Position numbers and translations under genes: made by a program | Shown: piece after piece, positions 8,349 through 14,701 of the stretch | How the letters are laid out: each line of letters opens with the position of its first letter | Position numbering within the stretch: the stretch's first letter is position 1 | Source: a virus | Length of the DNA: 33,882 bases | Virus record (IMG/VR): IMGVR_UViG_3300010883_000198 | Coordinates: 1-33,882 of that record | Direction: 5' to 3' (one strand) | The notes under the pieces: generated by a model | Database searches by the model: none | What the model saw: the letters and a program-made list of their open reading frames with translations, nothing else | Told to the model about the DNA's origin: nothing

Positions 8349-8639
8349 TCACTCTTCCAGGAGAATGATGGCGAGCAGCGAGTAGATGGCGTTATCCACC
8401 AGAGAGTCTCTCAGGCTCTCATTCTGAGGAGTTTTCCCCTTCGACAACTCCTCGATACGGCTCCATTTATCGGTCATCCGCGTGAGCACACCGCGCCACG
8501 GTTCCACTCCCACCCGCGCAGCACGGCGGAAGTTATAGAGCGGATCGTCGTCAGGTGCATAGTCGTGGTTTTTGCGGGAGTGCAAGGACGCGATCTCTTC
8601 GAGCAGGGCATAGAATCGTGGGTCACCGTGGTGCGTCAT
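8349..8639 (-). CDS. nucleotide-modification-associated (DUF1599-like) protein, 96 aa
   Basis: The ATG at 8639 overlaps the previous stop (ATGA). The pattern HSRKNHDYAPDDDPLYNF, GVEPWRGVLTRMTDKWSRIEEL and NESLRDSLVDNAIYSLLAIILL matches the DUF1599/PF07659 family, called nucleotide modification associated domain 1, seen in phages near enzymes that alter bases or nucleotides. The conserved D-Y-A, N-F, R-x-x-D-K and D-x-x-x-D residues are all present. The exact reaction is not established for the family. The upstream partner is a metallophosphoesterase, so both may act on nucleotides or modified DNA. Confidence 0.7.
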   Translation of the reverse strand: MTHHGDPRFYALLEEIASLHSRKNHDYAPDDDPLYNFRRAARVGVEPWRGVLTRMTDKWSRIEELSKGKTPQNESLRDSLVDNAIYSLLAIILLEE

Positions 8640-10057
8640 ATGTCCGCCACTACTGCTTCGGCCGTCTCTAGCGCCTCGACCGCCCCCATATCGTGCGTGA
8701 ATTTGTAGATCTTGGCTTTCGGTGCCTGATCTAGCTTGATAGGATACTCCCATGATTTGCCGTGCGCTGGGTGGAAACCGATCAGTTTTTGGGTCGGCTT
8801 GATCGGTTTGAACAGTTTGCCAACAGCATAGCTGTCGTACCCAGGGAAGCACCCGTTGACGATGGCCGTGTCGAGCTCCATCGGTCTATGGAGATGCCCT
8901 AGTATCCAGTAGTCATAGTGATCGCCGACCATCCGCAGTAGTTCCTGATACCCGCCAGATGCTCGATTGATGGAATATGCTGGAAGCCCCATCGTGGCCG
9001 GAGGCAGCTCCATGCCATGACTCAGCAGGATCTTGTGCTTCGCCACGTCGAGCACGGTAAATATGGCTTTTGGGATCTCGATGCGGATCTTCCTGTTGCC
9101 CCGCAGCCGCGCCGCTATGATGTTATTAAACAGGTAATCGAAATTACGGTAATACTGCTGACTTTCGGGCTTGCCCTTCGCCGTCCGGCCGTGATTGCCG
9201 CTGATCCCGACATAGCGAAGACGCTTAAAGCGCGTCGAGAGCCGTTGCAGGAATACAGCCACCGCCGTGGCCCCGATGAACACCTGGTCGATGATATGCT
9301 GTGCTCCGTATTTGGCGAGTTCGTCATGGATGAGGCCAGAGACATTGTCCCCGAGTGACGCGACCACCAGTTCAGGATAGTCGCTGGCCTGATGCGAGAA
9401 CAGAATATCAACGACCCGGCGTTCAAGATGCTCGAGTCGGTCCTGGAAAATGTCGAAATTGTATGCATTGATCCCGTTCGTTTCCGACAGAGAGACGATC
9501 TGGCCTATGTGCAGGTCGCCAAACGCGAGCAGCGGCGTCTCGACGGTCTTGCGTTTCGTATGAGACAGGATCGCTGGCGCCTTCTGGAGCTCCACGGGGA
9601 TAGACGGCAGCGATCCGATCGACGTCTCAAAGAGCGTGATAAGGCGCTCTTCGGCGGCGCTCTCCTTGATCTTCGCCTCATATAGCTTGCGATACCGGGA
9701 CACGGCTTCAAGGGCGCGCTGCAACCGGACATCACTGGACGGTGTCCGCTCGCCAGGCGTGGGGATCGTGCTCACGTTGCGATGGCACGACTGGCAGACA
9801 CTTGATCGATGGTCCTTCATTGCGCCACACTCGCAATGGCTGACCGGGCGCTTCGGCCGACAGTTCACGCACGCCCGTGATCGCTTCTGAATGACCGCCC
9901 CGCATCTACAGAGCCCCTGTCCTGGGGTCAGTGTCTGCGACCGCGTCCATATGTCCAGGCAGATGGCACACCCAGGTCTCGGCTTGGATCCCCCCCGAAA
10001 TCGAGGATGAGTCTTGCATCGCATACCGTGACCAGCGCCCTGTATGGTCTCGCCCAC
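8636..10057 (-). CDS. calcineurin-like metallophosphoesterase with N-terminal Cys-rich region, 473 aa
   Basis: The five metal-binding motifs of the family are visible in order: GDLHIG (Asp181, His183), SLGDNVSG (Asp237, Asn238), SGNHGR (Asn288, His289), LLSHG (His347) and GHLHRP (His388, His390). They resemble Mre11/SbcD-like nucleases or related phosphodiesterases. Before them, residues 14-91 hold six cysteine pairs (CAIC, CRC, CVNC, CEC, CQSC and a Cys-x2-His), enough for two or three small zinc ribbons, and a helical linker joins the two parts. The GTG start at 10057 has GGAGGCGAG upstream; an ATG at 10024 has no ribosome site. DNA end processing is a reasonable guess, not shown. Confidence 0.8.
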   Translation of the reverse strand: MGETIQGAGHGMRCKTHPRFRGGSKPRPGCAICLDIWTRSQTLTPGQGLCRCGAVIQKRSRACVNCRPKRPVSHCECGAMKDHRSSVCQSCHRNVSTIPTPGERTPSSDVRLQRALEAVSRYRKLYEAKIKESAAEERLITLFETSIGSLPSIPVELQKAPAILSHTKRKTVETPLLAFGDLHIGQIVSLSETNGINAYNFDIFQDRLEHLERRVVDILFSHQASDYPELVVASLGDNVSGLIHDELAKYGAQHIIDQVFIGATAVAVFLQRLSTRFKRLRYVGISGNHGRTAKGKPESQQYYRNFDYLFNNIIAARLRGNRKIRIEIPKAIFTVLDVAKHKILLSHGMELPPATMGLPAYSINRASGGYQELLRMVGDHYDYWILGHLHRPMELDTAIVNGCFPGYDSYAVGKLFKPIKPTQKLIGFHPAHGKSWEYPIKLDQAPKAKIYKFTHDMGAVEALETAEAVVADI

Positions 10058-10096: not shown

Positions 10097-10519
10097 TCAC
10101 ACGCGCCGAATACCCAGGATGGCCCCGATGGGATAGCCACGAATGGACACCTTGTTGCCCTGGTTGCCGCCCAGGATGCGGATCGATCCAGAGTCGCTGT
10201 CCCACCCGGCAAAGAACCCGACATGTCCGGCGGTGGGAGAATTGCCACGCTGGAGCACAGCGATGTCAGAGCCGGGGCGGGCCTGGTCTGTCCCCACAGC
10301 CACGCCGACATCGAGCCAACTCCTGGCCGCGGCGGACTTACTACGCGGACGGCGCAACTCCCAGCAGATGCCGTTGACGAAGCTCGAGCACCACGGCACC
10401 TCGTCGTCGGTCTCCCCGATCGTACAGGTCGAGTGCCACCAGCGGATGAGCGGATGGTCTCGATCGCCAGGGATCTCAGCGATGCCCAGGTAGCGTTGGG
10501 CAAGGTCAAAGGGTGTCAC
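10097..10519 (-). CDS. endolysin, TIGR02594/NlpC-P60-CHAP-like, 140 aa
   Basis: The single domain has the order LGIAEIPG, DEVPWCSSFVNGICWELRR with catalytic Cys44, a GSDIAVLQRG strand, GHVGFFAGW with His99, ILGGNQGNKVSI with Asn119 and a closing strand ILGIRRV. These are the hallmarks of the TIGR02594 family of phage cysteine peptidases that cut cell-wall peptides. There is no signal peptide, so export should need a holin. The GTG start overlaps the stop of the preceding gene (GTGA). A wall-binding domain is absent, as is usual for phages of Gram-negative hosts. Confidence 0.85.
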   Translation of the reverse strand: MTPFDLAQRYLGIAEIPGDRDHPLIRWWHSTCTIGETDDEVPWCSSFVNGICWELRRPRSKSAAARSWLDVGVAVGTDQARPGSDIAVLQRGNSPTAGHVGFFAGWDSDSGSIRILGGNQGNKVSIRGYPIGAILGIRRV

Positions 10520-10863
10520 GCGTCTCGCTTGGCCTGAATGTCCGCGATGACCGCCTCAAGTGCGGCGTGGGCATTCCGCAGCGCGACCTCTGCGTCCATG
10601 ACAGCCCCGACAGCCTCACGCACTTGCACATCAGACACCAAGTCCGTCGCCGTAGCCTCTTCGCCCACGACGAGCAGATTGCCGACCAGGTCGATGGCCT
10701 TCTGTCGCTTGGTCGCACCGGGCATCCCTGTGGCGACATCCTCTATGATGACGACCGACTGCGAGACCGCCTTGAGGATGACCCCGACCGGGCCGCCGAT
10801 GAGTGGCACGAATGGTAGCAAATTCTTCAAGACACCGCCGATCTTACCCCACGGAATACCCAT
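10516..10863 (-). CDS. hypothetical protein beside the endolysin, possible holin-related, 115 aa
   Basis: GGAGG lies eight bases before the ATG. The first 40 residues are amphipathic to hydrophobic and rich in Gly and Pro (VLKNLLPFVPLIGGPVGVIL), and the remainder is a long alternating helix (VREAVGAVMDAEVALRNAHA) with no clear membrane span. It immediately precedes, and is coupled to, the endolysin gene, the usual place for a holin or a lysis regulator, yet the hydrophobic part is short for a holin. The function therefore stays open. Confidence 0.6.
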   Translation of the reverse strand: MGIPWGKIGGVLKNLLPFVPLIGGPVGVILKAVSQSVVIIEDVATGMPGATKRQKAIDLVGNLLVVGEEATATDLVSDVQVREAVGAVMDAEVALRNAHAALEAVIADIQAKRDA

Positions 10864-10878
10864 GTCGTATACCTCCGG

Positions 10879-12207
10879 TTACAACTCGTAGACGGCCGCC
10901 TTCCATTCCCCAAACGCCTCGGAGTCGATGACGCGAGGCGTCTGATTGTCCTTCCACCGCATCGTGTACTCCCTCGGCTCTCGCAGTGACACGCCAATCC
11001 ATTGATCGCCATCGCGTCGGCCATACACCCTCACGGGTCCATCCCAGTCATCACTCGCGTCTTCGGTCGGTGGGAATGACCCGTCCGCGACAGGAGAACA
11101 CTCCCAGTGGCCGTTGCATCCCATCCCAGGAACGCCCAGCGGGATAGCATCCAGGCCACGGCTCCACGCCTTGAGGCAAGCGACTGTGTCTGGATGGTCG
11201 AGCTTGCACCACAACAGCTCGCGGGCATGAAACGTCGAGATAGCGACATGCTTCAGCCGGTTCATGGCCCCCAAACAGAACGCCGTGGCCGTGCTGCGTT
11301 CTCGCTCGTGTCCCATGTTAAACGGCTCGTCGTCATAGACGGGGTGATTGTCCCACGCATCGGCATCGCCTTCGATGAGCCTTTTCACTGCAGCGAAGTG
11401 GTTCCACCCTTTTTTTCGACTGAGGTGGTACGAGAACGTGTTCGCTGGCGGTGCAGCGAATGCGTGGTGGTCCTCGTCCTGCGCGCCCAGGTCCAAGGGG
11501 GTGTCGTCGGACAGCAGTTCCCTGGCGTGGTCTCCCAGATCCACGACCACCTGGCTGTTGACGCCAAAGCCGATCTGATGCGGCTCGTTGGCGATCTGGA
11601 AGAAGACGTTGCGTTGGTCACGCAGTGTCCCGACCGTCTGATCGAGATAGGCGTGCATCCGCTGTATCACATCAGCATGGCCCGTCACGACATCTCCACG
11701 CCGCTCCCAGTCTGGCTCTGCCCCGCAGGACTCCACCCCCCCAAAGAGGCAGACATGCCAATACAGCCCGTGCGATTCCAGCCACTCAGCGAACGGAACG
11801 AGGGATGGGTAGAACATGGGATCAGCAAAGCTGTTCGCTAGTCCTTTTGACTGCCAGTAGTCACCGCCCAGGTTGAGCAGGGGCCTCACGCTGTTAATCT
11901 TGCCGTGGCGCTTCAAACGCTCGATGGTGATGTCCATCTCGGCCTGCCGCCCCTGGAGCCAGAGGGAGAAGCCCGCCATCAGGGTGGCCTCACGTCCGTC
12001 CCACTCGCCCGCCTCGGTCTGGAGGAAGCGATGACCTGGGCTCACACGAAGACGTGGCAACCCCTGCTGGGGCGGCGGCGTGGGCAGTGGCATCAAGTGC
12101 TTGTTCGTCGCCCAGACAGGATGCCCATCGTGATACTGGACGAGGTTCCCGTCGTCTTGGACGGACAACACATTACGCCCACTGACGCTCCTGATTTCGC
12201 GTGTCAC
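10879..12207 (-). CDS. glycoside-hydrolase-like protein (clan GH-A fold) with N-terminal GNA-lectin motif, 442 aa
   Basis: Residues 17-25 match the mannose-binding motif of bulb-type (GNA) lectins, Q-x-D-x-N-x-V-x-Y, followed by the typical HPVWATN; only one of the usual three subdomains is present. A proline-rich link (residues 40-50) leads to a TIM-barrel-like part: FLQTEAGEWDGREATLMAGF, SVRPLLNLGGDYW, GLYWHVCLFGG, then FFQIANEPH (Glu208, expected acid/base) and VYDDEPFN (Glu294, expected nucleophile), the two-glutamate plan of clan GH-A enzymes such as GH5 cellulases and mannanases. The GTG start overlaps the preceding stop. It lies among lysis genes and has no signal peptide. It may degrade host or environmental polysaccharide; the substrate is unknown. 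Confidence 0.65.
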   Translation of the reverse strand: MTREIRSVSGRNVLSVQDDGNLVQYHDGHPVWATNKHLMPLPTPPPQQGLPRLRVSPGHRFLQTEAGEWDGREATLMAGFSLWLQGRQAEMDITIERLKRHGKINSVRPLLNLGGDYWQSKGLANSFADPMFYPSLVPFAEWLESHGLYWHVCLFGGVESCGAEPDWERRGDVVTGHADVIQRMHAYLDQTVGTLRDQRNVFFQIANEPHQIGFGVNSQVVVDLGDHARELLSDDTPLDLGAQDEDHHAFAAPPANTFSYHLSRKKGWNHFAAVKRLIEGDADAWDNHPVYDDEPFNMGHERERSTATAFCLGAMNRLKHVAISTFHARELLWCKLDHPDTVACLKAWSRGLDAIPLGVPGMGCNGHWECSPVADGSFPPTEDASDDWDGPVRVYGRRDGDQWIGVSLREPREYTMRWKDNQTPRVIDSEAFGEWKAAVYEL

Positions 12208-12404
12208 TGTGTGTCCTCAGTCGCAGCAGTCAGTCCCATTGAGGTCAGGGCCGCGAGGATGCCCTGCATCGCCGGTTGCCACACCCACGCACCGAACTCG
12301 GACCAGGAACTGGGCGGGGATTGATATGCGACGAGGCCGGTGAAGACGGAGATCAAGAAGAACCCCGCGCCGCGCACGACATGGCGACGTAGCGGCTGCG
12401 TCAT
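12204..12404 (-). CDS. candidate holin, two membrane spans, 66 aa
   Basis: The ATG at 12404 follows the previous stop by seven bases; a longer frame to 12449 overlaps the upstream gene. After a basic N-terminus (MTQPLRRHVVRG) comes a first span GAGFFLISVFTGLVAY, a polar loop PPSSWSEFGAW and a second span WQPAMQGILAALTSMGLTAA, then a short acidic tail. Size, two spans, charged ends and a place in the lysis cassette fit a class II type holin. A plain membrane accessory protein is the alternative. Confidence 0.55.
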   Translation of the reverse strand: MTQPLRRHVVRGAGFFLISVFTGLVAYQSPPSSWSEFGAWVWQPAMQGILAALTSMGLTAATEDTQ

Positions 12405-12411
12405 GGCGGTG

Positions 12412-12783
12412 TCACCGCGCCGCCCCCTGCTTGGTCCGCTCATCCACACGGGCGAGATCAGACACCAACGACGAGAGGGTCTTGTCCATGTCCTCGACTT
12501 TTGACACCAGCGACTGCACGTCCCCAGCTAACGTATTCGACTCCGTCGCTCGTTGGACGATGACGAGCGTCTTTTCCAAGGTCGCCAACTGCGCGTTGAC
12601 CGTGATTAAGATGCTCATCCGCATGTATGCGACCAGGCACCCCAACGCCAGTGAGATGATACCGGCGATTGCGAAAATTGACGGCCAGGAGAGCGTCACG
12701 ACATCGCCAGGCATCATAGTGGCCGATCGCGCTTGAGCGAGCAAGGGGACGAACAGTTGGGTCCAAAAGGGCACCATTGCCAT
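12412..12783 (-). CDS. membrane-anchored coiled-coil protein, spanin- or holin-accessory-like, 123 aa
   Basis: Residues 35-54 (SIFAIAGIISLALGCLVAYM) form one membrane span; a first hydrophobic stretch (FWTQLFVPLLAQARS) might be a second span or a signal. From residue 60 to 120 the chain is a coiled coil: VNAQLATLEKTLVIVQRA, VQSLVSKVEDMDKTLSSLV, VDERTK. A span followed by a periplasmic coiled coil is the plan of an inner-membrane spanin, and also of XhlA-type holin partners. No overlapping Rz1-like lipoprotein gene is seen. It lies next to the candidate holin. Confidence 0.55.
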   Translation of the reverse strand: MAMVPFWTQLFVPLLAQARSATMMPGDVVTLSWPSIFAIAGIISLALGCLVAYMRMSILITVNAQLATLEKTLVIVQRATESNTLAGDVQSLVSKVEDMDKTLSSLVSDLARVDERTKQGAAR

Positions 12784-13619: not shown

Positions 13620-13966
13620 TAGGCGGTAATCCTATTCACGAACCCGTAAATCACCACCACATTGGTGACTGAGGCAAACGCCGCCACCCCGAGCGACCCC
13701 GACATCAAGAGTCCCGGCACGATGGTGATCGCGCCACTATCAAACGGCAGCGTCATGACAATATGGTCATCGGGGTCGGTCGTGCCGCCCATCTCAATCG
13801 TGAGCACGACCGGGGCGGTGTGGGAGTTGTATGCCCAGAGCCAGACCTCATCCAAGTCCGACGCATGGGCATCATGGATGTCCGTGCCGGCCGTGGCCGT
13901 CCTGACCACCTTAATCCCGCGCCCGTTTGTGCTCCCGCTGAGTTTCTGCTTTGAAAAGGTTGCCAT
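13619..13966 (-). CDS. beta-rich structural protein, 115 aa
   Basis: The chain begins MATFSKQKLSGSTNGRGIKV and alternates short strands and turns: EVWLWAYNSHTAPVVLTIEM, HIVMTLPFDSGAITIVPGLL and ASVTNVVVIYGFVNRI. This is the pattern of a small jelly-roll or Ig-like virion protein; there is no membrane span or metal site. Both ends overlap neighbouring genes (TGATG and TAATG), placing it in the fibre/adhesin block. The function is inferred from context only. Confidence 0.6.
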   Translation of the reverse strand: MATFSKQKLSGSTNGRGIKVVRTATAGTDIHDAHASDLDEVWLWAYNSHTAPVVLTIEMGGTTDPDDHIVMTLPFDSGAITIVPGLLMSGSLGVAAFASVTNVVVIYGFVNRITA

Positions 13967-14661
13967 CAGCTAAATACCTCCACCGCGATATGGTCGAGCA
14001 CCACCGCGCCAGCCAGATCGGCCGGCATAAACGAGATCATAAGCGTCGTCACGGACATCGCCCACCCGACGCTCCGTTTCAGGGTTGGCGCTGTCCCGGT
14101 GAGCGCCCCGGCGGTGGCGCTCACATAGTATCGTGTGCCGGCTGTCAGCCCAGAGAGACCAGACGCGACCCCGCCGGTGCGGATCGTGCCAGCCGCCCCC
14201 GTCGCAATGGCTGCAGTGGAAAACCCTAACACCAGCTTCAGGCTGGAATACGCCAGGTCGGCGTCGGCCAGATACCACCGCCCCCCGGTCTTGCTCCCAG
14301 ACCCATCTGACAAATAGATACATTTCCCCGATGCGATCGTCTCCCCGGCGGTACCCGTGATGTCCGTATTCGTGCCACCGGAGATCGAGTTCGGGATGTA
14401 GTTATCGACGGTGCGAATGGTCACATCGCCAGACGTCTTGTACACGAACTTGTAGGCTTGTGACTTCAAGTAGGCAACGAACCGTCCCGCGGAATCGGCC
14501 ACAATCGGATTGGCATTGGCGGACGACAGCGCGGATGTCGTGTAGGTATCGAGGGCGTTGGTGGTGCCTGCGGAATAGGCAAATATCTTCGCCCCGGCGA
14601 CCGGATCGCCGCTGTCGTCCAATACTTGCACGGGGAGGGCTGTAATCGCTGGTCCGCTCAT
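13966..14661 (-). CDS. tail-fibre protein with P22-tailspike-like head-binding segment, 231 aa
   Basis: The ATG at 14661 has AGGCGAGG upstream; the GTG at 14682 does not. Residues 8-75 have the pattern of virion-binding domains of podovirus fibres: LPVQVLDDSGDPVAGAKIFA, TYTTSALSSANANPIVAD, SAGRFVAYLKSQAYKF. A glycine- and threonine-rich beta region follows, ending FMPADLAGAVVLDHIAVEVF. At 231 residues it is far shorter than a full tailspike and lacks a long helix domain, so it is probably an adaptor that carries the small adhesins encoded just after it. Confidence 0.65.
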   Translation of the reverse strand: MSGPAITALPVQVLDDSGDPVAGAKIFAYSAGTTNALDTYTTSALSSANANPIVADSAGRFVAYLKSQAYKFVYKTSGDVTIRTVDNYIPNSISGGTNTDITGTAGETIASGKCIYLSDGSGSKTGGRWYLADADLAYSSLKLVLGFSTAAIATGAAGTIRTGGVASGLSGLTAGTRYYVSATAGALTGTAPTLKRSVGWAMSVTTLMISFMPADLAGAVVLDHIAVEVFS

Positions 14662-14701
14662 GCTGTCCTCGCCTGATAACACAGGACTGCGCTCGACCTG
14701 C

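Follow-up and report, generated by a model that had tools for sequence, protein, structure and literature searches.

What might a phage gain from a glycosidase-like protein whose gene lies among lysis genes? The question is raised by an open reading frame of 442 residues at positions 10879..12207 (minus strand) of an IMG/VR virus record of 33,882 nucleotides (IMGVR_UViG_3300010883_000198), the whole of which is called the window here. The window codes for a P22-type portal protein (PF16510 in Pfam, E=8e-116), a large terminase and a major head protein, and its virus is a podovirus-like phage; among the matches listed, the portal shares at most about 32% identity with those of cultured-collection phages. 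The kind of collection suggests that the window and the relatives described below come from soil. The initial annotation had read the gene as a lectin-tipped glycosidase of a lysis cassette, and the reading frame, as well as all the residues it had singled out (Q17, D19, N21, V23, Y25, the HPVWATN stretch, Glu208 in NEP and Glu294 in DEP), lies exactly where it had placed them.

The lysis region of the window

The gene order on the minus strand is a 123-residue membrane protein, an 81-residue holin candidate, the glycosidase-like gene, a 115-residue protein and a CHAP/TIGR02594 protein. The 123-residue protein (12412..12783), a lysis-region candidate by hydropathy with a coiled-coil-like tail, has no significant family in Pfam, PHROG or NCBIfam, while the hydrophobic 81-residue protein (12204..12449) has one segment above the hydropathy threshold and a sub-threshold match to PF16079 (E=0.05). 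The start codon of the glycosidase-like gene is a GTG that overlaps by two bases the TGA stop of the 81-residue gene, and this GTGA arrangement points to translational coupling of the two. Downstream, the 115-residue protein (10516..10863), a holin-like candidate with one hydrophobic segment by hydropathy, has no family match in Pfam or PHROG, and the 140-residue CHAP/TIGR02594 protein (10097..10519) is an endolysin candidate based on its matches to PF05257 (E=2e-7) and TIGR02594 (86 bits against a cut-off of 70.6). The glycosidase-like gene, two genes upstream of this endolysin candidate, indeed sits between a holin candidate and an endolysin gene, with the 115-residue hydrophobic protein intervening before the latter. 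Also on the minus strand, at 13966..14682, is the gene for a 238-residue protein that is probably tail-fibre-related; in relatives, homologues of it are encoded upstream of the glycosidase-like gene. Positions 8636-10057, which follow immediately on the endolysin candidate, code for a phosphoesterase-like protein akin to phage exonuclease families (phrog_284, E=3e-37).

An uncatalogued family with a predicted clan GH-A-type barrel

No model in Pfam, PHROG or NCBIfam covers the window protein, and PF00150 (Cellulase) does not match it. Used as a single query against viral and genome contigs, the protein brought up no barrel relatives, and tblastn searches of cultured phages, with the window protein and also with its relatives as queries, returned none. 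Relatives were reached through portal-sharing records (which gave two of them), a DNA pattern for NVFF-x3-NEP, an alignment-guided scan and a broader pattern. Altogether 14 distinct relatives were obtained, each from an uncultivated viral contig; with the window protein they form an alignment of 15 distinct rows (A7). A genome scan guided by the family alignment with one seed, PxVGDEP[MI]G, recovered no family member; as it rested on that one seed, a virus-only distribution is not proven. When all 15 members were scanned against Pfam, PHROGs and NCBIfam, the barrel gave only sub-threshold GH5 matches (the best to PF00150 having E=0.0034; one member reached 11.1 bits against a gathering cut-off of 23.5), and the family is uncatalogued in the libraries checked.

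Examination of A7 revealed that, wherever the rows cover them, Arg108 (strand 2), N207-E208-P209, H261, R264, W268, D293-E294-P295 and H327 are all conserved, which provides a family signature of N-E-P, H-x2-R-x3-W, D-E-P and T-F-H, with the last histidine coming after strand 8. Both motifs on which the glycosidase reading had been founded go beyond chance, being kept in every relative that covers them (N-E-P in all 14 covering rows of the 15, D-E-P in all 15). When the window protein is left out of the profile, it is still found with E=2.4e-21 (best of 500 shuffles: 0.51); it is the most divergent member of the family, with 20-27% identity (28% at most) to the others and an end branch of 4.0. 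In one relative (L100:2-880) the barrel gene runs through an internal TAG; the gene may be broken, the TAG an error, or the stop recoded.

AlphaFold predicts a (beta/alpha)8 barrel both for the window protein (about residues 53-356; 11140..12051, minus strand), at moderate confidence (pLDDT 62.6, pTM 0.69), and for the relative L085 (pLDDT 90, pTM 0.89). In the window model strand beta4 (201-206) is followed by N207-E208 and beta7 (290-292) by E294; in the L085 model the matching glutamates come after beta4 (154-159) and beta7 (231-234; E235). On the strength of conservation and model, Glu208 (codon 11584..11586, minus strand), in NVFFQIANEP at the end of beta4, is the candidate acid/base, and Glu294 (codon 11326..11328, minus strand), in DDEP at the end of beta7, the candidate nucleophile; the topology of the barrel suggests that the two would share one cleft. 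The L085 model continues into a clear C-terminal beta-sandwich (309-385), and in the window protein a beta-sandwich-like domain is predicted at about residues 393-442 (10882..11031, minus strand), with strands 393-399, 402-408, 425-432 and 435-441 of low confidence.

The fold searches point in the same direction. In Foldseek searches of the PDB, the matches listed for the models are GH5 mannanases and glucanases, GH140, GH30 and exo-mannosidases; identities are about 9-17% and TM-scores at most about 0.6, and nearly all the enzymes in this list belong to clan GH-A. GH5 and GH140-type enzymes come out best, with identities of about 13%. The matches include the GH5 mannanase ManDH5 for the window model (7e-9), and BVU_2644 and BT_1012, the latter of which we take to be a GH140 enzyme, for the L085 model (6e-9 to 1e-6). 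In the viral model set, uncharacterised proteins of uncultured phages match best. At the sequence level, the A7 profile matches GH5 endoglucanases (5byw, E=4e-4), with the N-E-P stretches of both aligned. Thus, the clan GH-A-like barrel that had been proposed is recovered as a prediction for two family members, complete with Asn-Glu ending beta4 and Glu ending beta7. Neither outcome that the initial annotation had named as fatal to it, a predicted structure lacking the barrel or glutamates not turned towards a common cleft, emerged from these predictions. Taken together, the models, the Foldseek matches and the profile match place the window protein in a clan GH-A-type family outside GH5 as GH5 is modelled, and its reading as an enzyme is well supported.

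The family resembles GH5 (PF00150; ManDH5, Thermobifida Cel5A/E5, endoglucanase H) in the (beta/alpha)8 barrel, N-E-P after beta4, Glu after beta7, Arg after beta2 and a weak profile match over the first half. It differs in scoring below the Pfam cut-off, in its identity of about 13%, and in the additional C-terminal beta-sandwich and H-x2-R-x3-W signature. Moreover, GH5 enzymes usually have a conserved tryptophan after beta8, where all members of the present family have a histidine (His327, in T-F-H or a close variant). GH140-type enzymes (the 8t9w apiosidase and BT_1012) are among the best Foldseek matches of both models, with TM-scores up to 0.59, but share 11-14% identity with the family and have no sequence-profile match to it in Pfam or PDB. 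With Pfam Cellulase below its cut-off and a structural identity of about 13%, the cellulase/mannanase-like specificity originally suggested is a label that the protein has not earned. A GH5 enzyme with endomannanase activity is known from a soil virus (PMC6786970); it too is a soil-virus enzyme of clan GH-A, but one that is caught by existing family models, whereas the present family is not.

A single lectin repeat in the window protein

The N-terminus of the window protein contains a single repeat of the GNA/monocot-lectin type (residues 5-37; 12097..12195, minus strand; QDDGNLVQYHDGHPVWATN), in which QxDxNxVxY (residues 17-25) is followed by VWATN. In phmmer searches about residues 5-37 match the GNA-type lectins 4oit (E=1e-4), 1npl (2e-4) and 1jpc (1e-3). 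The motif QxDxNxVxY occurs once in the 40,539 residues of the six-frame translation of the window and in none of 300 shuffles; its DNA form is likewise found once, with no matches in 100 shuffles. The AlphaFold model has four short strands here, of low confidence. In the Pfam, PHROGs and NCBIfam scans the region gave a weak match to NF033557 and sub-threshold lectin-like matches, with no Pfam match to B_lectin at E<=1. Given the GTGA start coupled to the upstream gene, the repeat is very probably translated.

Known GNA-type domains consist of three repeats that form a beta-prism (beta-prism II). The window protein has the QxDxNxVxY repeat in common with GNA/B_lectin domains and the lectin-like bacteriocins LlpA and pyocin L1, but these have three repeats and it has one. 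Hence, what had been described as a full GNA-lectin motif holds, by phmmer and motif, for one repeat and not for a whole lectin domain. The further notion of a mannose-binding tip finds less support, as the repeat is one third of a three-repeat domain and absent from all relatives found. Lectin-like bacteriocins with GNA-type domains are described as binding D-rhamnose in LPS (PMC6465234), and, as far as that description extends, mannose specificity should not be assumed. It is possible that repeats from three chains assemble into one lectin.

Among the reading frames examined at the relatives' loci, that of the window protein alone has the lectin motif. A corrected DNA pattern for this motif recovered five viral contigs; the two proteins inspected (with a 60-residue ORF filter) are multi-repeat lectins without the barrel, which was not found in the remaining three contigs either. 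Matches to the window protein in a plasmid collection cover the lectin repeat only, and in an open-access literature library we found no paper that brings together phage, bulb-type lectin and glycoside hydrolase.

Genomic setting and probable role

Of 20 records that are related by their portal and measure at least 34 kb, four have the barrel gene, which is accessory, unlike a core lysis or capsid gene. Homologues of the protein at 13966-14682 are encoded about 0.9-1.4 kb upstream of it in L085, L087, L089-L093 and L097. In the group of L085, L087 and L093 this homologue and small proteins with hydrophobic segments come before the barrel gene and more small hydrophobic proteins after it. A GH108 endolysin (PF05838, E=1.7e-10) lies directly upstream of the barrel gene in L134, with a hydrophobic protein following, and in L140 two small hydrophobic proteins are found directly downstream. 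Large tail-like genes are ahead of it in L134, L135 and L136, and in L138 it stands among nucleotide-metabolism-like genes with no tail or lysis neighbours. Except where a family is named, these readings come from inspection of the reading frames. Together with the presence in four of 20 records, they indicate that this accessory gene often, but not always, sits at the tail/lysis border; the lysis-region location recurs in several relatives. The N-terminal modules of the relatives also vary, being CarboxypepD_reg-like in L117 (a weak match) and L136 (out of frame) and long in L079.

Some loci show peculiarities of their own. In L135 (8290-8345) the barrel is out of frame with an upstream ORF of 691 residues, the stop of which is about 9 bases before it, and no ATG, GTG or TTG start is close by. 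The two would become one frame through a -1 shift at GACAAAAAACCG, which suggests either a programmed frameshift or an assembly error. In L136 (14640-14900; identical in L137, two assemblies) the barrel is immediately preceded, in a different frame, by the end of a CarboxypepD_reg/Ig-like ORF, again with no usual start near the barrel, and a +1 shift at CTCTAAA would join them. In L138 (7731-8374) two mutually homologous small proteins (112 and 101 residues) are encoded directly upstream of the barrel gene; a beta-trefoil was suspected for them and searches gave no match. An M15 endolysin suspected in L093 from an HxH-like motif was unsupported by Pfam and PDB searches. In L085 (9041-10282) a 413-residue ORF with a signal-peptide-like stretch near its start comes after the barrel gene, which is not so in L087 or L093.

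We consider that the window protein is best explained, and probably so, as a late phage enzyme that hydrolyses polysaccharide outside the cytoplasm. From what is known of clan GH-A, Glu208 would serve as the proton donor while Glu294 attacks the anomeric carbon, and the bond would be cut with retention. The gene would be translated late, coupled to the holin candidate. The protein shows neither a hydrophobic signal nor a membrane segment, so that it would accumulate in the cytoplasm until lysis sets it free, or else be carried on the virion. Outside, it might trim capsule, exopolysaccharide or O-antigen-like glycan, which would help progeny to leave and to reach new hosts, and the lone lectin repeat may hold it on its glycan, perhaps by assembling with the repeats of neighbouring subunits. 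Between release at lysis and carriage on the virion the odds are almost equal; the coupling to the holin candidate tips them slightly towards release. What tells against the explanation as a whole is the divergence of the window protein, the moderate confidence of its own model, the histidine in place of the beta8 tryptophan usual in GH5, and the setting of the gene in L138.

A virion-bound depolymerase, that is, a structural tail component cutting host surface glycan at adsorption with its N-terminal module for attachment or recognition, is a serious possibility, if short of even chances; our confidence in it overlaps with that in the best explanation, because the enzyme is the same in both. 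The variable N-terminal modules, the large tail-like genes in L134-L136 and the homologue of 13966-14682 just upstream in eight relatives' loci speak for it, but no virion-attachment domain is recognised in the window protein, its gene has the holin candidate, not a tail gene, as its coupled neighbour, and L138 is without tail neighbours. It is unlikely that the protein is an auxiliary metabolic enzyme that lysis sets free to break down polysaccharide of plants or microbes in the soil and that serves neither lysis nor adsorption. The endomannanase-active soil-virus GH5 (PMC6786970), the beta-mannanases among the closest folds and the accessory nature of the gene would suit such a role, yet cellular relatives were not found (in a genome scan of limited seeds), the family is distant from known plant-polymer enzymes, and the lysis-region location points to phage biology.

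The position in the lysis region, shared by the window, L134 and L140, would also be compatible with a second lysin that works alongside the CHAP endolysin in cutting the glycan of the host cell wall. This we regard as improbable: the window protein has no peptidoglycan-hydrolase family match in Pfam, PHROG or NCBIfam, the structural matches listed by Foldseek include no peptidoglycan hydrolase, separate endolysin genes (in the window, the CHAP gene) are already there, and most related phages lack the barrel gene. Equally doubtful is a catalytically dead barrel used for binding only. GH-like folds can serve as binding modules, and the activity of the window protein is a prediction, but the two glutamates, together with the Arg, Asn, His and Trp residues around them, are kept in all covered rows, which binding alone would not demand. 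There is a small chance that the late enzyme favoured here extends to a virus-specific uncatalogued clan GH-A family of lysis-timed 'exit' depolymerases in soil phages, with the GNA repeats of the window protein trimerising into a polysaccharide-anchoring lectin.

What is new here is the uncatalogued family, its lysis-region setting and the fusion to one lectin repeat, while the kind of finding is familiar from the known soil-virus GH5 (PMC6786970). Missed by the libraries checked, the family would be overlooked in annotation; with its signature of four motifs it can be searched for and tested. Host range and access to biofilms are set in part by phage enzymes that remove host polysaccharide, and glycosidases from soil viruses are suspected to contribute to carbon turnover. 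If the enzyme acts at lysis, 'exit' depolymerases would be set apart from the well-known tail-borne 'entry' ones.
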